A stretch of DNA of 64,000 bases from Coriobacteriaceae bacterium EMTCatB1 (GTDB lineage: Bacteria; Actinomycetota; Coriobacteriia; Anaerosomatales; Anaerosomataceae). The notes beneath the pieces were generated by a model. It saw only the letters and a program-made list of their open reading frames with translations, was not told where the DNA came from and did no database searches. Position 1 is the first letter of the stretch. Every line of letters starts with the position of its first letter. Shown piece after piece: positions 50,005 to 62,186 of this stretch. The stretch spans positions 186,001 through 250,000 of the forward strand of contig BDLO01000001.1 in assembly GCA_001950395.1 (NCBI GenBank), read 5' to 3'. The position numbers and the translations under genes were made by a program.

Positions 50005-52200
50005 GTGAACCACACCAAACTCATCCAATTCATCGCGTCCGTGTGCACAATCGCGCTCACCGCATCGATTGGATCCTACGCGGCGTTCGCCATAGAGCCG
50101 CTTGCAATCCCTGATTTCACCATCCACGGCGGTGGCTGGGGGCACGGCATCGGGCTCTCGCAGTACGGGAGCCAGGGATTCGCGCTCCACGGCTACTCGT
50201 ACGACGCCATCATCAAGCATTACTTCCGAGGTGTGAGCATCGAAAAGGCCTCGACGGCGGTGCAGGCGCGCGTCAACCTCGACAAGAGCAGCGCGTCCCG
50301 CACGTCGTGGACAGTGAGGTCGGTCGACGCCACGATGACCGTGTACGACGGCTCTGCGTCCGTGAAGCTGCCGAGGAACACGTACTACACGTTCGCGAAC
50401 AGCGCCTCTGGCGTCGTCATCAAGAAGTACGACACGGGGTCGGTCGTCGCCACCTTCACGGGCTCGTCGGTCAAGGCGGACCCTGACGGCGAGGCGCTCT
50501 TCGAGGTGAAGGACCCTTCAGGCCCGCCTTTGAACTCCAGCTATCCGTCCGGGTACCCATACGTCCGGTGGCGCGGGCGGTTCGAGGTCACGCGGGACGG
50601 GACGTCGAAGCTCTTCGCGTGGAACCTCGTTGCGCTCGAGCAGTATCTGTACGGCGTCGTGCCGCGGGAGAGCCCGGCCAGTTGGAAACAGGAGGCGCTC
50701 AAAGCGCAGGCGGTCGCCGCCCGCTCGTACGCGAAGGCGAAAATCGACCCCGACGATGACGGCGTGCGCCAGAGCAACCTCGCGTGCACGACCGCCGATC
50801 AGGTCTACGCCGGGCACTCGCGGCTCTCGAACGGCTCGGTGGTGATGCACGAGGCGTCGAGCACGAACGCTGCTGTTGACGCGACGCGCGACCTCGTCGT
50901 GAAGTACGACTCGACGATCGTCACGACGTTCTTCCACTCCTCCTCGGGCGGGAGCACGGCGAACATCGAGGACGTGTGGCCGTCTGCGTCTGCGAAGCCG
51001 TACTACACCGGCGTCGACTCTCCGTACGAGGCCGATGCTGGAAACCCCAACCAGAGCTGGACGGTGACGATGGACGGCCTGGCGATGGCAGGCAAGCTCG
51101 GCGCGCCGTCCGGACTCTACGTCCGGCGCGTCTCCATCGAACGGGGCGTGAGCGGCTACCCGAAGTGGACGACGTTCTACTTCAGCAACGGCACGAGCAC
51201 GACGCTCGGCGCCGATTCGGTGCGCATCAAGCTCGGTCTGAAGTCCCCGAACTTCTCGTTCTTCGGTTTCCCGATGCAGCGCATCGCAGGCGCGGACAGG
51301 TATGCGACGGCGGTCGAGGTCTCGAAGAAGGCGTTCCCGACCACGAGCACGGCCGTGGTGCTGGCCTCGGGCGAGCAGTACCCGGATGCGCTGTCCGGCT
51401 CTGCGCTCGCTGGGACGGCGAAGGGCCCGCTCTTGCTCACGCGGCCGAACGAGCTGCCGGACGCCGTGCGGATCGAGGTGACGCGCCTGAAGCCCGCGAA
51501 GGTGTACGTGCTGGGCGGCGCCGGCGCGGTGAGCGATGACGTGCTCAAGGCTCTCAAGAGCGCGCTGCCCTCTGCCGAGGTGACGCGCGTCGGCGGTGTC
51601 GACCGCTACGATACCGCCGCCAGGGTCGCGGAGCTGACCCGATCCATGAAGCCCACCGGGAAGGCGTTCGTGGTGAGCGGCGAGTCGTGGGCAGATGCCG
51701 CCGCCGTGTCGCCTGTCGCGTACCGCAAGGGCTACCCGGTGCTCCTCGTACGCCGTTCCAGCGTGCCGAGCGCGACCGCCGCGTTCCTTGCCGCTGCGAA
51801 GCCCGCGGAAGCACAGGTGGCGGGCGGACCGAGCGTCGTCGACGAATCGGTTGCAGCGTCTGTCACCGTGCTCACTGGTGGGACGGTCGAACGGCTCGCG
51901 GGCGACGACCGCTACGAAACGGCCGCCGCGGTCGCGCGCTGGGCGCTCGGCGAGGGGTTCACCGCGACGGAGCCGTACCTCGCCACAGGCCTCGCATATC
52001 CCGACGCGCTTTCGGCGAGCGCGCTCGCGGGCACGCGCGGCTTCCCGCTGCTGCTCACGAAGCGCGACTCGGTGCCCGACGGCACTGCGGGGTTCCTCCG
52101 TGAACACACGCTTGCGATCAGCACGCTGTGGCTTCTCGGCGGTACCGGCGCGATCAGCGACGCCGGCACTGCGGCGCTCTCGACCGTGATGGCGCAATAG
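50005..52200 (+). CDS. SpoIID/LytB-domain protein with three cell-wall-binding repeats (PF04122)
   Basis: 731 residues. Signal peptide from the GTG at 50005 (LIQFIASVCTIALTASIGSY). Residues about 35-400 are a SpoIID domain: HGGGWGHGIGLSQYGSQGFA, LYGVVPRESPASWKQEALKA, AVAARSYAKAK and VTTFFHSSSGGSTANIEDVW. In SpoIID these regions form a lytic transglycosylase that cuts denuded glycan strands. Residues about 425-731 are three CWB2 repeats (RIAGADRYATAVEVS, RVGGVDRYDTAARVAEL, RLAGDDRYETAAAVARW). The enzyme is thus targeted to the wall. GGAGG precedes the GTG; a GTG at 49963 is rejected because it lacks a signal peptide in phase with its start. TATGCT at about 49951 could be the -10 box. Confidence 0.92.
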   Translation: MNHTKLIQFIASVCTIALTASIGSYAAFAIEPLAIPDFTIHGGGWGHGIGLSQYGSQGFALHGYSYDAIIKHYFRGVSIEKASTAVQARVNLDKSSASRTSWTVRSVDATMTVYDGSASVKLPRNTYYTFANSASGVVIKKYDTGSVVATFTGSSVKADPDGEALFEVKDPSGPPLNSSYPSGYPYVRWRGRFEVTRDGTSKLFAWNLVALEQYLYGVVPRESPASWKQEALKAQAVAARSYAKAKIDPDDDGVRQSNLACTTADQVYAGHSRLSNGSVVMHEASSTNAAVDATRDLVVKYDSTIVTTFFHSSSGGSTANIEDVWPSASAKPYYTGVDSPYEADAGNPNQSWTVTMDGLAMAGKLGAPSGLYVRRVSIERGVSGYPKWTTFYFSNGTSTTLGADSVRIKLGLKSPNFSFFGFPMQRIAGADRYATAVEVSKKAFPTTSTAVVLASGEQYPDALSGSALAGTAKGPLLLTRPNELPDAVRIEVTRLKPAKVYVLGGAGAVSDDVLKALKSALPSAEVTRVGGVDRYDTAARVAELTRSMKPTGKAFVVSGESWADAAAVSPVAYRKGYPVLLVRRSSVPSATAAFLAAAKPAEAQVAGGPSVVDESVAASVTVLTGGTVERLAGDDRYETAAAVARWALGEGFTATEPYLATGLAYPDALSASALAGTRGFPLLLTKRDSVPDGTAGFLREHTLAISTLWLLGGTGAISDAGTAALSTVMAQ

Positions 52201-52223
52201 GCGCACGGGAAGGAGACGTGAGC

Positions 52224-53057
52224 ATGGTGGGGGCTGTCACCTTGGATGTGCCCGAGCAGGACGCGCGTCGCACGCGTGAGGCCCTCGGCGCGCCTGCGCG
52301 GATCGCGGTGGTGCTCGGCTCCGGGCTGTCAGGCCTTGCCGACGACGCTGCCGACGCGATCGCGATCCCGTACTCCGAGCTCGACGGCTTCCCGAAGGTC
52401 GGTGCTGTCGCTGGCCACGCTGGCAGGCTGGTCGCGGGCACGATCGCCGGCGAGCGGGTGCTCCTCTTCCAAGGCCGCGCGCACCAGTACCAAGGCGTGA
52501 CGGCGCTCGACGCAGCGTACCCTGTGCGGCTCGCGGCCGCGGTGGGATGCGAGACGCTTGTCGTGACGAACGCAGCAGGCGGTGTGCGCGAGGACCTGAG
52601 GCCTGGCGACCTGGTGCTGATCTCCGACCACATCAACCTCATGGGCACCAACCCGCTCATCGGCTGGCCTGGATCCCAGGGCGGCTTCCCCTTCGTGCCC
52701 ATGCGCGACGCGTACGACCCGGAGCTGCGGGCGCTCATGCGCGCGACAGCGGAGCGGATCGGCGTGACGCTGCACGACGGCGTGTACGCCGGGTTGCTCG
52801 GACCGTCGTACGAGACGCCTGCGGAGGTACGGATGCTGCGCACGCTCGGCGCGGACGTGGTCGGCATGTCCACGGTCCCCGAGGTGATCGCGGGCCGAGC
52901 GCTCGGGCTGCGCGTGGTCGGGCTGTCGCTCGTGACGAACGCGGCCGCAGGCGTGGGTCTGTCGCACGAGGAGGTCCTCGAGGCAGGGAAGCGGGCGGCC
53001 GAGCGCATGAAGCTGCTCGCCACCGCCTTCATCGAGGGTTTCGCGCGCATCGCCTGA
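52224..53057 (+). CDS. Purine nucleoside phosphorylase, trimeric (PNP-I) type
   Basis: 277 residues. Phosphorolysis of purine nucleosides to base and (deoxy)ribose 1-phosphate. Signatures: VVLGSGLSGLADD, VLLFQGRAHQYQG, VVTNAAGGVREDL, SDHINLMGTNPLIG, and VGMSTVPEVIAGRALGL. The asparagine in SLVTNAAAGVGLS marks specificity for 6-oxopurines (inosine, guanosine) in this family; MTA phosphorylases carry an aspartate there. ATG at 52224 follows GGAAGGAGA. ahcY and mtnA follow, see findings. Confidence 0.93.
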   Translation: MVGAVTLDVPEQDARRTREALGAPARIAVVLGSGLSGLADDAADAIAIPYSELDGFPKVGAVAGHAGRLVAGTIAGERVLLFQGRAHQYQGVTALDAAYPVRLAAAVGCETLVVTNAAGGVREDLRPGDLVLISDHINLMGTNPLIGWPGSQGGFPFVPMRDAYDPELRALMRATAERIGVTLHDGVYAGLLGPSYETPAEVRMLRTLGADVVGMSTVPEVIAGRALGLRVVGLSLVTNAAAGVGLSHEEVLEAGKRAAERMKLLATAFIEGFARIA

Positions 53058-54389
<1,332 letters not shown>

Positions 54390-54395
54390 GGCGCG

Positions 54396-55622
54396 ATGCC
54401 TTCGCTCGACGACATCCCTCGCACTATCTGGTGGCAAGACGGGCGCGTGATGCTCGTCGATCAGTCGCGGCTGCCGCTGCAAGGCGACTTGCTCGCGTGC
54501 AACACCTACGAAGGCGTCTGCCAAGCGATCAAGGGCATGGCGGTGCGAGGCGCGCCAGCTCTCGGAGTGGCGGCTGCTCTCGGCGTGGCGCTGTGGGCGA
54601 CCACCGAAGGCGCCGAGATCGACGACGTCGATGGGTTCCTCGCGCGGCTGGACGAAGTCGCCGCAGAGATCGCGGCCACACGTCCGACCGCGGTGAACCT
54701 CGCATGGGGCGCCGAGCGCATGCGTCGCTTCGCGCACGACAACGCGGATGCCGGGTTGCCGGAGCTGCGCGACCTGCTCGTGCAGGAAGCGCTCCGGATC
54801 CGTGCCGAGGACGAGGAGCGCAATCGCGCCATCGGCGCGCACGGGGCGGAGCTCATCCAGCCGGGCAGCCGGATCCTCACGCACTGCAATGCCGGCTCGC
54901 TCGCGACGGCCTACTACGGCACGGCGCTCGGCGTGATCTTCGCCGCGCACGCGCAAGGCAAGGTCGAGGGTGTGTGGGTCGACGAGACGCGGCCGGTGCT
55001 GCAGGGCGCTCGGCTCACGGCGTGGGAGCTCAAGCTCGCGGGCGTGCCCTTCAAGCTGATCACCGACAACATGGCGGCGAGCATCATGAGAGCGGGCCTC
55101 GTCGACGCGGTGGTCGTCGGCGCCGACCGCATCGCCGCTAACGGCGACGTCGCCAACAAGATCGGCACCTATGGGCTCGCCGTGCTTGCCAGAGCGCACG
55201 GGATCCCGTTCTATGTCGCGGCGCCGACCTCGACCGTCGATCTGACGCTCTCGAGCGGCGACGAGATCGTCATCGAGGAGCGCGACCCCCGTGAGGTCCT
55301 GGGGGTGACTGCCTCCGGCGTCATCGAGCCCGACTCGCCGGCAGCGCAGCGCGCGTTCGACCTGCTCACGGAGAACGGCCCGTACGTCGTGCCGATCCAG
55401 AAGGGCCACCAGATGGTCATCGAGCGCAAGGGGGCGGCGTATCGCTTCGACGGATGGTTCCGCGTCGCGCCGCCGAACGTGGAGGTCTACAACCCAGCAT
55501 TCGACGTGACACCGGCGGAGTACGTCACGGCGATCGTCACCGAGCGCGGCGTGGCGCGCGCCCCGTACGAAGAGTCGCTCGCCGGCGTGTGCTGCGGGTC
55601 CGGCGCCATCCACGAGCTGTAG
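54396..55622 (+). CDS. mtnA: Methylthioribose-1-phosphate isomerase MtnA
   Basis: 408 residues. It converts 5-methylthioribose 1-phosphate to the ribulose form in methionine salvage. IRWQDGRVMLVDQ-like start, IKGMAVRGAPALGVAAALG, catalytic cysteine in LTHCNAGSLATAYYGTALG, catalytic aspartate in VVGADRIAANGDVANKIGTY. About 40 residues longer than typical MtnA at the C-terminus, with a CC-containing end (VCCGSGAIHEL). It starts six bases after ahcY and is in the same operon. No mtnP, mtnK or mtnB is seen near it. Confidence 0.93.
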   Translation: MPSLDDIPRTIWWQDGRVMLVDQSRLPLQGDLLACNTYEGVCQAIKGMAVRGAPALGVAAALGVALWATTEGAEIDDVDGFLARLDEVAAEIAATRPTAVNLAWGAERMRRFAHDNADAGLPELRDLLVQEALRIRAEDEERNRAIGAHGAELIQPGSRILTHCNAGSLATAYYGTALGVIFAAHAQGKVEGVWVDETRPVLQGARLTAWELKLAGVPFKLITDNMAASIMRAGLVDAVVVGADRIAANGDVANKIGTYGLAVLARAHGIPFYVAAPTSTVDLTLSSGDEIVIEERDPREVLGVTASGVIEPDSPAAQRAFDLLTENGPYVVPIQKGHQMVIERKGAAYRFDGWFRVAPPNVEVYNPAFDVTPAEYVTAIVTERGVARAPYEESLAGVCCGSGAIHEL

Positions 55623-55632
55623 GGGAGAGAGG

Positions 55633-56541
55633 GTGGCTCTCGGCGAGCTCCTCGGCGTGATCGTTGCTATCCTCGGGTACGTCGCGATCGGCGTCGCGCT
55701 CAGGGTCGCGCGGGTCCTGCGCCCCGAGGATGCGAAGCCGCTCAATGCGGTGCTGCTGAACGTCGGGCTTCCGGCGCTCGTCTTCACGTCCGTCCACAGC
55801 GCGCAGGTCGACGCGTCGCTCGCGCTGGTGCCCGCGCTCGCGTGGGTCGCAGTTCTCGTCGGGCTGGCTGCTGCCGTGCTGCTCGCTCGGGCTCTCAGGT
55901 TGCCGCCGGCTGCGAGCGGGGCGTTCGTGCTCGCGGCGGTGTTCGGCAACACCGGGTACATCGGGTACCCGGTGGCGCACGCGCTTCTCGGTGAGCCCGG
56001 GCTCGTGCGGGCCATCTTCTCTGACATCTTCGGGAACACCCTCGCGATGATCGCGCTGGGCACGCTCGTCGCTGCGCGCCTCTCGCAGCACCAGGCGGAC
56101 GTCCATCCGCTCAAAGAGATCGCTGCCTTCCCGCCGTTCATCGCGCTCGCGCTCGCGCTCGCGACGCGCGGCATACACGTTCCGGCTCCGTTCATGGATT
56201 GGTTAGGGGCGCTCGGCAAGATCGTGGTGCCGTTGATCATGATCTCGGTGGGTCTGTCGCTCAGGCCGCGGAAGCTGAAGGACCATGCGGGGGTGGTTGC
56301 CGCTGCTGCCGTCGTGAAGCTGGTGTTGCTGCCGCTGATCGGGTTGCTTCTGGCCCGACTGGTCTTGCACGACGAGGCGTCTGCGCGGGTAGTGGTGCTC
56401 GAAGCGAGCGTGCCGACGATGATGATGGCCGTGATCGTCGGTGATCGCTTCGACCTCGACACCGACCTCGTCGCTTCTACCGTGCTCGTTACGACCATCG
56501 CATCGGTTGCCGCGATTCCTCTGTGGCAGCTGCTGGTCTGA
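55633..56541 (+). CDS. AEC (auxin efflux carrier) family transporter
   Basis: 302 residues, about ten membrane helices. The central GNTGYIGYPVAHALLGEPG and the N-terminal LNAVLLNVGLPALVFTS match the AEC/MdcF family, which move organic anions such as malate or malonate; substrate here unknown. GTG start after GGGGAGAGAGGG, ten bases after mtnA, so it may export or import an intermediate of the salvage pathway or be a chance neighbour. Confidence 0.87.
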   Translation: MALGELLGVIVAILGYVAIGVALRVARVLRPEDAKPLNAVLLNVGLPALVFTSVHSAQVDASLALVPALAWVAVLVGLAAAVLLARALRLPPAASGAFVLAAVFGNTGYIGYPVAHALLGEPGLVRAIFSDIFGNTLAMIALGTLVAARLSQHQADVHPLKEIAAFPPFIALALALATRGIHVPAPFMDWLGALGKIVVPLIMISVGLSLRPRKLKDHAGVVAAAAVVKLVLLPLIGLLLARLVLHDEASARVVVLEASVPTMMMAVIVGDRFDLDTDLVASTVLVTTIASVAAIPLWQLLV

Positions 56542-57262: not shown

Positions 57263-57274
57263 GCGCTCACCTGG

Positions 57275-57280
57275 TACACT
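57275..57280 (+). promoter_or_regulatory. -10 element for the structured RNA
   Basis: TACACT, ending four bases before the first paired base of the RNA (57285). That distance puts the expected transcript start on the RNA's 5' end. Confidence 0.55.
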
Positions 57281-57284
57281 TCGT

Positions 57285-57521
57285 GGTGCTTCCATCCGGG
57301 TCTGTGGTTGCGGGCGCTTCGGCGCCCTAGTCCAGGGTAGGCGCGGCCGAAAGGACCCACGTAAGCCGGAGGCCATGCCTCCGTGTGAGCATGGCGCGCC
57401 TTAGGGGTAAGTCGCACCGTCCGCTTCGGCGGGCGAGAGGGCCGGTAGTGAGATAGCATCAAGCGGAAGCCCCAGTGCGCGAGTGTGGGGCCAAAGACCA
57501 GGTCAGCCGGATGGAAGCACC
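57285..57521 (+). ncRNA. Large structured non-coding RNA, candidate raiA-motif RNA
   Basis: About 237 nt with no credible open frame. The ends form a perfect 15-base-pair stem: GGTGCTTCCATCCGG (57285-57299) with CCGGATGGAAGCACC (57507-57521). Inside are at least four more hairpins: GGGCGC/GCGCCC with TTCG loop (57312-57327), CGGAGGC/GCCTCCG (57367-57383), CGTCCGC/GCGGGCG with TTCG loop (57418-57435), and GCCCCA/TGGGGC (57469-57491). GGGTC (57298) can also pair with GACCC (57354). The raiA-motif RNA is a known class in Bacillota and Actinomycetota whose gene usually lies between comFC and raiA; size, complexity and place fit. I cannot compare with the published consensus here. Alternative: a long leader of the binding-protein gene that starts 30 bases later. 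Confidence 0.7.
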
Positions 57522-57551
57522 GTTGATCCACGATCACCGGAGGTGCCTCGG

Positions 57552-58430
57552 ATGAAGAGACACGGCATGCGGTTGCGAGCGGTCGTGGCGGTGGCGGCTG
57601 CCGCGCTGTTGGTCGCGAGCGTCGGTTGCCAGAAGCAACAGGCGGGCCCGGCTCTGAACCCGAAGATCGCACCTCCCGCAATCAAGGAAGCAGGGGTGCT
57701 CAAAGCGGCGGTCGACCCGACGCAGCCCCCGTTCGCCGGCACCGTGGACGGCCAGGTGGTCGGCATGGACGTCGACGTGGCGGCTGCGCTCGCGGAGCGT
57801 CTCGGCTTGAAGCTCGAGCTCGTCAAGATGTCGTGGAGCGACGTCGCTGCTGCGGTGGCGAAGGGCACTGTCGACGTCGGTTTCGCGGCGATTCCGATCA
57901 CGGATGCAGTGCTCGCCAACATATCTGTCGCGGGTTCGTATGCGACCGACGGCATCGGGCTGTTCGGCGTTGTGGCCACGGGCACCGTCGAGGCGACCGG
58001 CACCGTCGGCCCAGAAGAAGCGGCTGCTCTCATGAGCGGGGAACGCGTCGCGTGCCAGAAAGGGTCGGCCGCGCAGTGGTACCTGGAGTCAGAGTACTGG
58101 GAGGGGTTTGCCACGACCTACGAGACGCTTCGCGAGGCGTTCGACGCTCTTGCTGCTGGCGAGGTGGACTACGTGGCGTGCGACGCATTCGTAGGCGCGT
58201 ACCTCGCGCGTGACTACGGCAACGTGCGCTTCGTGGCACCCGTGGGGGAAGCGATGCCGCTCGGCGTGCTCGTCGCGAAAGACTCTACCGAGCTCGCAGC
58301 AAAGGTCCGAGAGACGTTGGACGGGATGGCAACGGACGGCACGCTTGCGACCATCCGGACGAAGTGGGTAGGCGATCTGCCTGAGCTGCGTGTGTACGGA
58401 AGCACGGAGCCGACGGAAGCCGCTCAGTAA
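57552..58430 (+). CDS. Solute-binding lipoprotein, family 3, canonical order but atypical ligand site
   Basis: 292 residues. Signal peptide with lipobox ending in Cys26. The fold order is normal: lobe 1 start GVLKAAVDPTQPPFAG, MDVDVAAALAERLGL, then lobe 2 with ERVACQKGSAAQWYLES, the aspartate Asp211 in VDYVACDAFVG, and the closing helix MATDGTLATIRTKWVG. The arginine that normally binds the amino acid carboxylate (the T-x-E-R motif) is replaced: the site reads ITDAVLANIS with Val120. So it belongs to the polar amino acid family but may bind something else. ATG at 57552 follows GGAGGTG, 30 bases after the RNA. Confidence 0.88.
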   Translation: MKRHGMRLRAVVAVAAAALLVASVGCQKQQAGPALNPKIAPPAIKEAGVLKAAVDPTQPPFAGTVDGQVVGMDVDVAAALAERLGLKLELVKMSWSDVAAAVAKGTVDVGFAAIPITDAVLANISVAGSYATDGIGLFGVVATGTVEATGTVGPEEAAALMSGERVACQKGSAAQWYLESEYWEGFATTYETLREAFDALAAGEVDYVACDAFVGAYLARDYGNVRFVAPVGEAMPLGVLVAKDSTELAAKVRETLDGMATDGTLATIRTKWVGDLPELRVYGSTEPTEAAQ

Positions 58431-58565: not shown

Positions 58566-59435
58566 ATGGGCACGTTCCGCAAGGCGCTCGCACTGCTGGT
58601 TGTGTGCGCGCTGGCGTTGGGCGCTCTCGCGCTCGGCGGTTGCGCGAAGAAGGAGAGCACTGACACCGGCGGCCAGACGGGCGCGCGCGTCATCAAGAGC
58701 GTCGACGACCTCAAGGAAGGCGACAAGGTCGGCGTGCAGTCCGGAACGACGGGTGAGGCTTGGGCGAAGAAGAACCTCGAGCCCAAGGGCGTCCAGGTCG
58801 TTCCGTACGACGACATCTTGCTTGCTTTCCAGGCGCTTCAGGCAGGAGATGTCGTGGGTGTTATCAACGACCTGCCGATCTCGCAGGACATCGTGAAGGA
58901 TGAGGCGCGCGGGCTGGAGATCGTGCAGGAGATCCAGACCGACGAGACCTACGGGTTCGCCTTCAACAAGAACAATCCGACGCTGCGCGATGCGGTGAAC
59001 TGGGCTCTCGCCGAGGTCATCAAGGACGGCACCTATAACGAGATCTACACGAAGTGGTTCGGCTCCGAGCCGATGTCGATGCCGGAAGCCACGAGCGGTG
59101 TGACTGAGAAGCCAGCCGGCGAGATCAAGACCCTCACTCCTGGCAAGATCATCGTCGGTTCCGACACTGCGTTCCCGCCCTTCGAGAACGTCGAGAACGG
59201 CGAAGTCGTGGGCTTCGACGTCGACCTCATGAAGGCGATCGGCGAGAAGCTCGGCATGACCGTCGAGTTCAAGAGCTACAAGTTCGACGCGCTCATCACC
59301 GGTCTGCAGGCCGGCACCGAGTTCGACATGGTCGCATCAGCCATGACCATCACAGACGAGCGCAAGCAGTCCGTGGACTTCTCCGATCCGTACATCAATT
59401 CCAACCAGTCTCTTGCGGTTCGCAAGGCACAGTAG
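58566..59435 (+). CDS. Circularly permuted polar amino acid-binding lipoprotein (SBP family 3)
   Basis: 289 residues. Signal peptide with lipobox ending in Cys26. The family's second half comes first: DDLKEGDKVGVQSGTTGEAW (47-66), ALQAGDVVGVINDLPIS with Asp102, and the terminal helix DGTYNEIYTKWFG (154-166). A linker of about 25 residues follows, and then the family's first half: GKIIVGSDTAFPPFE (193-207), VVGFDVDLMKAIGEKLGM, ALITGLQAGTEFDMVA, MTITDERKQSVDFSDPY (260-276, Arg266 intact) and NQSLAVRKA, ending at 289. All ligand residues seem present. The order is a circular permutation with new ends at the hinge between lobes. GGAGG precedes the ATG. Confidence 0.93.
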   Translation: MGTFRKALALLVVCALALGALALGGCAKKESTDTGGQTGARVIKSVDDLKEGDKVGVQSGTTGEAWAKKNLEPKGVQVVPYDDILLAFQALQAGDVVGVINDLPISQDIVKDEARGLEIVQEIQTDETYGFAFNKNNPTLRDAVNWALAEVIKDGTYNEIYTKWFGSEPMSMPEATSGVTEKPAGEIKTLTPGKIIVGSDTAFPPFENVENGEVVGFDVDLMKAIGEKLGMTVEFKSYKFDALITGLQAGTEFDMVASAMTITDERKQSVDFSDPYINSNQSLAVRKAQ

Positions 59436-59536: not shown

Positions 59537-60790
59537 GTGCGGCGGGAAGTGCGTAATCGCATCGTCCAGGTGGTGTATGCGGCGCTGGGCATAGCACTGC
59601 TGGCTGCATTGCTCACGATGACCGGGCCTGATCGGCTGGTCTACGACCACCCGGCTCCTCGGGGCCAGAAGGGCATGGTTCACGACACCTTCCCGATCCC
59701 GCCCGTGCTCGACACAGTCACCATCGCGAAGCAGAACGCGAATGTGGTCTTGCCGCAGGCGGAGCTCGCTCCTGGCAGCGTCGTTCGATTGAAGAGGCAA
59801 CCCGCGGGGGGCGGTATGGCCTCCTCATCGTGGGTAGTCGAGTCAGCTGAGACGTCGCCCTCACCCGTGTTGCTCAACGGGCAGCCTGTGTCGGGAACGC
59901 CAACGCTCTCTGACGGGGACGTGCTGACGATCGGCGGCGTGCCCGTCACGTTCGAGTCTGGGCGCCGCGGCATCCTCGGCGCTCTCGACTGGTGGGAGAC
60001 CGGCAAGGTGTCGCACCTGTTCGCGTCACCGAAAGTCGTCGCTCAGGCCTTCCCTCACGTTCTCAAGGCATTTCCGGTCTCACTCTTGTGCGTCCTGGTG
60101 GCGTACTCGCTCGCGATACCCGGGGGCCTGACGCTCGCGTTCATGAAGATGGCGCGCTCAGCGTGGTTCCGCTGGCCGTCGACCGCGTACATCGACTTCA
60201 TCCGTGGAACGCCGCTGTTTCTGCAGATCCTGATCGTCTTCTTCGGGCTGCCGCTGCTCCCGCCGTGGCAGGCCCTGCTGGCTGCGTTTCCGGGGCTCAA
60301 TGAGCCCGGTCCCTTCGGCCCGACGTACTCGCTGTACCTGCGCGCCTTCGTGGTGCTGTCGTTCAACTCGGCTGCGTACATGGCGGAGATCTTCCGTGCC
60401 GGCATCCAGTCGATCAGCAAGGGGCAGATGGAGGCGGCGCGCTCGCTCGGCATGACGACTGCGCAAGCGATGACCTTCGTCATCATCCCGCAGACGGTTC
60501 GACGCATCCTGCCGACGATGATGTCCGAGTTCATCCTGCTGTTCAAAGACACGTCGCTCTTCGCGGCGGTCGGCATGGGCGAGATGGTCATGCGAGCGCG
60601 CGAAGTCGCTGCTTCGAGCTACAACGTGTCGCCGTACCTGCTCGCGGCCGTCTTCTACCTCGTGGTGACCATCCCGCTCGGTCGCGTGGTGCACCGGCTC
60701 GAGAACCGGCTGGCGCAATCTGAGGGCGGCGCGATCTCGGTCTCGGAGGCGCGGCCGACCATCGATTCTGAGCACGCGATCGCGGTGTGA
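59537..60790 (+). CDS. Amino acid ABC transporter permease with an extra FHA-like extracytoplasmic domain
   Basis: 417 residues; usual HisM/GlnP permeases have about 220. One helix (about 8-28) is followed by about 145 exported residues. In these, about 58-142 look like a beta-sandwich of FHA type, ending VLLNGQPVSG, LSDGDVLTIGGVPVTFE. The FHA phosphothreonine residues (G-R and S-x-x-H) are missing. The normal permease part starts near 170 (VLKAFPVSLLCVLVAYSLA), with YIDFIRGTPLFLQILIVFFG and the EAA loop AARSLGMTTAQAMTFVIIPQ. GTG at 59537 follows GGAGG; an upstream GTG at 59522 is weaker. Confidence 0.9.
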   Translation: MRREVRNRIVQVVYAALGIALLAALLTMTGPDRLVYDHPAPRGQKGMVHDTFPIPPVLDTVTIAKQNANVVLPQAELAPGSVVRLKRQPAGGGMASSSWVVESAETSPSPVLLNGQPVSGTPTLSDGDVLTIGGVPVTFESGRRGILGALDWWETGKVSHLFASPKVVAQAFPHVLKAFPVSLLCVLVAYSLAIPGGLTLAFMKMARSAWFRWPSTAYIDFIRGTPLFLQILIVFFGLPLLPPWQALLAAFPGLNEPGPFGPTYSLYLRAFVVLSFNSAAYMAEIFRAGIQSISKGQMEAARSLGMTTAQAMTFVIIPQTVRRILPTMMSEFILLFKDTSLFAAVGMGEMVMRAREVAASSYNVSPYLLAAVFYLVVTIPLGRVVHRLENRLAQSEGGAISVSEARPTIDSEHAIAV

Positions 60791-60802: not shown

Positions 60803-61546
60803 ATGGACAGCAACAGCGAGCCGATCGTCCGCATCAAAGGGCTGCGCAAGCGTTTCGGCGACCTCGAGGTCCTGCGCGGCGTGGACATGGACGTGCGCAA
60901 GGGCGAGGTCGTGGTGATCCTGGGGCCGTCCGGTTCGGGCAAGTCGACGCTCCTGCGGTGCGTGAACCGGCTTGAGGAGCCCACGGGCGGCGAGGTGTGG
61001 TTCGAGGACACGCTCGTCAACAGCCCCAAGACGGACATCAACGCTGTGCGCGAGAAGATCGGGATGGTATTCCAGAGCTTCAACCTCTTCCCGCACCTCA
61101 CCGCAAGGGGAAACGTGATGCTCGCGCAGCGCAAGGTGCTTAAGCGCTCGAAAGAGGAGGCCGAGCGTATCGCGATCGAGCAGCTGACGCGCGTCGGGCT
61201 CGCCGACCGCATCGACTACTACCCCGCTCAGCTTTCGGGCGGCCAGCAGCAGCGCGTCGCGATCGCGCGAGCGCTCGCGATGGATCCGCACGTCATGCTG
61301 TTCGACGAAGTCACCTCGGCGCTGGATCCCGAGCTCGTGCGCGGCGTGCTCGACGTCATGAAGCAGCTGGCTCTCGGCGGCATGACGATGCTCGTCGTGA
61401 CGCACGAGATGGGCTTCGCCCGCGACGTCGCCGACCGCGTCGTGTTCATGGACGGCGGCGTGATCGTCGAAGAGGGGCTGCCGGAAGAGGTGTTCGACAA
61501 CCCCAAGCACGAGCGGACCAAGGACTTCTTGGGGCACATCAGCTAG
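60803..61546 (+). CDS. Polar amino acid ABC transporter ATP-binding protein (GlnQ/HisP family)
   Basis: 247 residues. Walker [17 protein letters not shown] loop [12 protein letters not shown], signature [17 protein letters not shown], Walker [15 protein letters not shown] and switch histidine [11 protein letters not shown], all intact. N-terminal [19 protein letters not shown]. It would drive the permease before it, 12 bases away, as a homodimer. Last gene of the transporter operon. Confidence 0.96.
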
Positions 61547-61649: not shown

Positions 61650-62186
61650 ATGAGCACAGTCGTGAAGGGTCGCCACATGGACGTCACGCCGGCTCTCCGC
61701 GAGTACGCGGAGGAGAAGATCGGCAAGGTCGCGAAGCTCCTGAACGATCACATGGTGACCAGCGTAGAGATCGAGCTGAGCGCCGAGCGCAACCCGGCTA
61801 TCGAGAAGAAGCATGTGGCAGAGGTCACGATGCACACGAAGGGTCACGTCATCCGCGCCAAGGAGGCGGCGACGGACATGTACGCCGCCATCGACCTGGT
61901 CTCCGAGAAGCTCGAACGGCAGGTGCAGAAGCTGAGGACCAAGCTGCAGAACCGCCACAAGGCCGCTGCGCCGGTTGCGGCGGAGCCCGAACCTGCAGAG
62001 GAGCGCGAGCCGAGCATCGTGAAGCGGAAGGTCATCGAGGTCAAGCCGATGGCACCCGAAGAGGCGGCGCTTCAGATGGAGTTGCTCGGGCACGACTTCT
62101 TCGTGTTCGCCTCGGCGGAAAGCGAGACCATCAACGTGCTGTACCGCAGGAGCGACGGGGACTACGGCCTGATCATCCCGCGGTAG
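61650..62186 (+). CDS. raiA: Ribosome hibernation promoting factor, long form (RaiA/HPF)
   Basis: 178 residues. N-terminal domain (1-100: VKGRHMDVTPALREYAEEKI, VEIELSAERNP, ATDMYAAIDLVSEKLERQVQ) binds the 30S subunit at the mRNA/tRNA path; a charged linker; C-terminal domain (about 125-178, KPMAPEEAALQMELLGHDFF, INVLYRRSDGDYGLIIPR) that pairs ribosomes into 100S dimers. ATG at 61650 follows AGGAGGT. TATCTT near 61613 may be its own promoter. A terminator follows, and secA, the usual next gene, is not here. Confidence 0.96.
   Translation: MSTVVKGRHMDVTPALREYAEEKIGKVAKLLNDHMVTSVEIELSAERNPAIEKKHVAEVTMHTKGHVIRAKEAATDMYAAIDLVSEKLERQVQKLRTKLQNRHKAAAPVAAEPEPAEEREPSIVKRKVIEVKPMAPEEAALQMELLGHDFFVFASAESETINVLYRRSDGDYGLIIPR

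Follow-up and report, generated by a model that had tools for sequence, protein, structure and literature searches.

What does a solute-binding protein do once the arginine with which its family holds the ligand carboxylate has gone? This question is raised at positions 57552 to 58430 (forward strand) of the 64,000-nucleotide stretch of DNA analyzed here (the window), where a gene that we call SBP1 encodes a canonical-order family 3 solute-binding lipoprotein, an assignment made from sequence, profile, and structural model. Its open reading frame of 292 residues begins with an ATG at 57552 and ends at 58430, and it is preceded by a good ribosome-binding site, GGAGGTG (57539 to 57545, +), and by a raiA (ModT) structured RNA (57291 to 57515, +). 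The predicted lipobox cysteine, Cys26, is encoded at 57627 to 57629 (+). The Pfam profile SBP_bac_3 (PF00497) matched SBP1 at 88.7 bits (cut-off, 26.4). Eleven models of named amino acid receptors in NCBIfam also matched it, none at its cut-off, the best being TIGR01096 with 92.7 of 256.35 bits. An AF2 model (pLDDT 92.1) has the two-lobed type II binding protein fold, with fold matches that include 1ggg_A (E value of 4.8e-19) and 8vi8_A (Z 22.3, rmsd 2.7, 222 aligned). In structure comparison the model lay nearest to open, ligand-free binding proteins, although a predictor may simply open empty clefts. A control model of the downstream binding protein, SBP2 (pLDDT 89.8), gave poor whole-chain matches, probably owing to its permuted chain order, and the openness of the SBP1 model therefore carries little weight.

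A sequence-only reading of this locus had proposed that SBP1 lost the carboxylate-binding arginine and has Val120 at that site, that the permuted neighbor SBP2 keeps its own (Arg266), and that the lobe 2 loop of SBP1 is altered. All three observations held. Where the family has T-x-x-x-x-R, SBP1 reads P-I-T-D-A-V, with ITDAVLANIS starting at residue 116 and Val120 encoded at 57909 to 57911 (+). Alignment to structurally known members, as that reading had advised, gave EERKK, PERKK, PERKK, DERKE, and DERKK opposite the window's DAVLA in the five PDB chains listed, all of which have arginine where SBP1 has Val120. The wider alignment comprised 55 same-order SBP1 orthologues, the window's included, and 41 relatives from the wider class, at least one of which (L194) looks same-order from its neighboring genes. 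None of these 96 rows has arginine in the column, which is filled by Val, Ala, Ser, Asp, Thr, Glu, Ile, Asn, Leu, Phe, Tyr, Gln, or a gap; two rows (G035_L127 and L194) have an arginine one residue early, and none has one at the correct spacing. The motif threonine is also lost, with proline in 43 of the 55 same-order rows and in the window (Pro115; 57894 to 57896, +), and the lobe 2 loop reads QKGSAAQWY versus QSGTTGE in SBP2. By contrast, SBP2 (family 3, circularly permuted; 58566 to 59435, +; Arg266 codon at 59361 to 59363) has T-x4-R in 55 of 57 order-level copies and GTTG in all 57; the remaining two copies carry a three-residue insertion, with ER still present. Since arginine is absent from all SBP1 relatives and kept by SBP2 from the same loci, its loss is, on these alignments, a fixed trait of the SBP1 family and far older than one genome. 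A search of the alignment for a substitute arginine found none in place. One candidate, Arg220 (mature 195), was judged not to be a replacement: it is invariant in the order, occurs in only 2 of the 41 wider-class rows, and closes a helix of lobe 2 in the model.

Cleft columns are named here after the GlnBP residues (T118, D157, D10, and F50) that we take to be their counterparts in number and role. In lobe 2, Ser occupies the T118-like column in 93 of 96 SBP1 rows, and 85 of 96 have Asp in the D157-like one. Trp176 (mature 151; 58077 to 58079, +), which falls early in a lobe 2 helix (148 to 156 in the model), is matched by tryptophan in 90 of 96 rows (55/55 same-order and 35/41 wider-class); it is missing from 15 of 16 further SBP1-like rows that were picked by their RNA and is therefore no class-wide signature. 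Asp55, at the D10-like column, is present in 55/55 rows in the order and 17/41 outside it, and the F50-like column holds mostly Pro, Ala, Ser, or Gly. The alignments show that the predicted SBP1 protein lacks the lobe 1 carboxylate clamp (Thr plus Arg) and keeps several lobe 2 cleft positions.

The evolutionary rates of the two binding proteins, a comparison that the earlier reading had suggested, differ in the same direction by two measures, SBP1 being the faster. Mean identity over 1,431 genome pairs was 49.4% for SBP1 versus 59.7% for SBP2, with SBP1 the lower in 1,180 pairs, and dN/dS in six within-genus pairs was 0.11 to 0.21 versus 0.06 to 0.09, rough values given that SBP1 dS was above 1. 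This faster evolution, the loss of the lobe 1 Thr and Arg, and the residues found at the F50-like column would all suit a ligand-free scaffold or regulator that has given up small-molecule binding. We consider such a role rather unlikely, since the lobe 2 cleft Ser and Asp are conserved class-wide and would be needless in a dead cleft.

Downstream of SBP1 and SBP2 lie the genes for an ABC importer permease that carries an additional domain at its N terminus (59537 to 60790, +) and an ABC importer ATPase (60803 to 61546, +). The order SBP1-SBP2-permease-ATPase is found in most genomes of the window's order, as would be expected of a working pair. Together with the lobe 2 cleft positions that have been kept, this arrangement would fit a further receptor that has changed its specificity and delivers another substrate to the permease of the same importer. 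Against such a role, SBP1 and the importer are found apart in both directions. Among the 41 wider-class SBP1 loci, SBP2 lies downstream in 13 and is lacking in 25 that all extend at least 2.5 kb past SBP1, while 3 are too short; joint retention with the permease and ATPase is thus common within the order and not a rule in the class. Eggerthella, Adlercreutzia, and Gordonibacter have SBP1 and are missing the importer. Conversely, the importer occurs without SBP1 in 7 of 9 loci of families f20 and f21 (L330, L332 to L336, and L338), where the next binding protein after the raiA RNA is of the SBP2 type, with its arginine or T-x4-R.

The importer genes also appear to have been exchanged without SBP1. 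Genome G026 is 95% identical to its congener G010 in MtnA, 74% in SBP1, and 90% in RaiA, versus 56/58% in SBP2 and 54% in the permease; its identities to G013, of another genus, are 63% in SBP1, 91/89% in SBP2, 83% in the permease, and 95% in the ATPase. MtnA, the AEC permease, SBP1, and RaiA of G026 are thus congener-like, whereas SBP2, the permease, and the ATPase resemble those of another genus and form a foreign-looking cassette. The same pattern was seen in two further genera (g3 and g9). G048 has SBP1 next to the RNA and SBP2 ~7.8 kb off, and G038 has the SBP2-permease-ATPase cassette without SBP1 within the stretch examined. Because SBP1 persists without the importer and stays when the cassette is exchanged, it is probably not the importer's receptor, and we regard supply of a second substrate through this permease as unlikely. 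The suggestion that SBP1 is a partner of the permuted SBP2 fares no better in the face of these exchanges, the 25 loci without SBP2 or importer, and the f20/f21 loci that keep the importer and lack SBP1; moreover, canonical as well as permuted SBP2 proteins adjoin SBP1.

The position of SBP1 is tied instead to the raiA RNA, which the sequence-only reading had not mentioned. In the window, the RNA matched RF03072 over its full length (1 to 209) at 162.7 bits (gathering cut-off, 101.3), and the SBP1 start codon lies 36 nt past its end. SBP1 follows the RNA in all 54 same-order loci having both, at a median of 32 nt from RNA end to start codon (range, -5 to 98 nt, with start codons chosen by script and the extremes probably misassigned). 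When distant Coriobacteriia loci were chosen by SBP1, the RNA was just upstream in 20 of 20; when loci were chosen by the RNA alone, SBP1 came next in 16 of 19, an intact SBP2 in one, and RaiA directly in two (L244 and L248). In all 21 class genomes listed with both positions, the SBP1 profile match lies 102 to 238 nt from the RNA end. The RNA is present in 284 of 296 class genomes, and 293 of 296 have an SBP1-profile match at an E value of ≤1e-10, with a profile that also finds ordinary paralogues. Elsewhere in the phylum, outside the class, an SBP1-like open reading frame was found at 0 of 28 raiA RNA loci, and RaiA lay within 1.5 kb at 26 of the 28. The simplest history is that SBP1, often with an importer, was inserted between the RNA and raiA in Coriobacteriia; the window's gene for the RaiA/HPF ribosome hibernation factor (PF02482 and PF16321) is at 61653 to 62186 (+).

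An extended -10 promoter-like element, TGGTACACT (57272 to 57280, +), can be seen by eye just upstream of the RNA, and a TGnTAnnnT-like element stands in the same place in nearly all 54 same-order loci, also as judged by eye. The promoter scan of the window, which required a -35 box, did not call this element. Promoter and terminator scans together returned one promoter-like and four terminator-like sites, near the shuffled expectation; none lies between the RNA and SBP1, and no terminator-like hairpin was found there in the window. Because a promoter-like element precedes the RNA, the start codon follows ~32 nt past its end, and the window has no terminator-like hairpin between them, SBP1 would be translated from a transcript that starts with the raiA RNA.

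That SBP1 is a decaying duplicate riding behind a strong RNA promoter, as its fast evolution and absence from several lineages might suggest, is very unlikely given dN/dS well below 1, its retention in most of the class, and the lipobox Cys and 20 invariant columns in 55/55 same-order rows. As far as its sequence can tell, SBP1 is intact, predicted to be lipidated, and under purifying selection, and it is therefore not debris. It forms a single clade (n = 71; support, 0.999) that separates cleanly from SBP2 in an unrooted tree. Descent of SBP1 from an SBP2 duplication was considered and set aside, as this tree splits the two and does not show them to be sisters.

We favor the reading, to which we give a probability of roughly 55%, that SBP1 is a stand-alone lipoprotein, led by the raiA RNA, for something besides an ordinary amino acid. 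SBP1 would have derived from amino acid-binding family 3 proteins and, in Coriobacteriia, have settled between the RNA and raiA, where it was mostly kept. At the cell surface it may serve as a stand-alone receptor or as a ligand-holding or structural lipoprotein, presumably within the starvation or stationary-phase module of RaiA and the raiA RNA. Its ligand, if it has one, would not be an ordinary alpha-amino acid gripped through a carboxylate-arginine pair; binding of another ligand or a sensor role, both raised by the sequence-only reading, are possible. SBP1 is not universal: besides the two loci in which RaiA directly follows the RNA, it is absent from the seven f20/f21 loci.

More tentatively, the raiA RNA and SBP1 might form one functional unit in Coriobacteriia, in which the RNA is a 5′ leader that sets SBP1 levels or SBP1 reports an outside signal acting on the growth-to-stationary transition attributed to the RNA. 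A gene may lie next to an RNA that has a strong promoter without sharing its function. If the two do form a unit, SBP1 would be a protein clue to the job of an RNA that is abundant and structurally solved and whose molecular role is still not known. A class-wide neighbor that stays with the RNA while the importer comes and goes offers a concrete lead on that role. The findings are also a warning that such lipoproteins should not be annotated as amino acid receptors.

In BvgS and EvgS, the periplasmic Venus flytrap domains also belong to family 3 and serve sensing, not transport. BvgS ranked fifth among the PDB matches of the SBP1 profile; each of its two domains keeps arginine in the aligned column, whereas SBP1 lacks it and, unlike BvgS and EvgS, is a free-standing lipoprotein with no kinase. 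With the GlnH-type glutamine-binding protein (PDB 1GGG) and the ancestral AncQR (4ZV1), SBP1 shares the fold, lobe order, GxDVD motif, and lobe 2 Ser/Asp positions. It differs from them in lacking the lobe 1 Thr/Arg clamp, in having the lobe 2 helix Trp in this order, and in that an importer neighbor is not obligatory. Nothing useful on arginine mutants of binding proteins was found in the literature searched.

The RNA at this locus belongs to the same family as other raiA motif (ModT) RNAs, whose structure has been described in PMC11751092 and PMC12286853. According to PMC11706538, the commonest neighbors are comFC upstream (74%) and raiA downstream (66%), and gene neighborhood is rated a poor guide; a text search of that paper found no mention of "solute-binding" or "Coriobacter." Coriobacteriia depart from the usual locus in having a gene for a binding-protein-like lipoprotein, often with an importer, between the RNA and raiA. 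No earlier report of a link between raiA RNA and SBP1 was found in the literature searched, a scope that did not include the main synteny study (Soares 2024), which could hold one.

Several further observations concern the neighboring genes. On the SBP2 tree, the circular permutation maps to one change. It is present in 22 of 57 order-level copies, and permuted and canonical forms both occur within one genus, apparently via cassette exchange. In a Coriobacteriales MAG (L198, 4771 to 5502), the SBP2 halves are also permuted, at ~40% identity, perhaps representing a second, separate permutation. The N-terminal domain of the importer permease (59606 to 60016) has no Pfam match and looks FHA-like by eye. 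Upstream, positions 52200 to 56541 hold genes named by eye as those for adenosylhomocysteinase, methylthioribose-1-phosphate isomerase, and purine nucleoside phosphorylase, and mtnA and an AEC-type permease gene accompany the SBP1 locus through most of the order.
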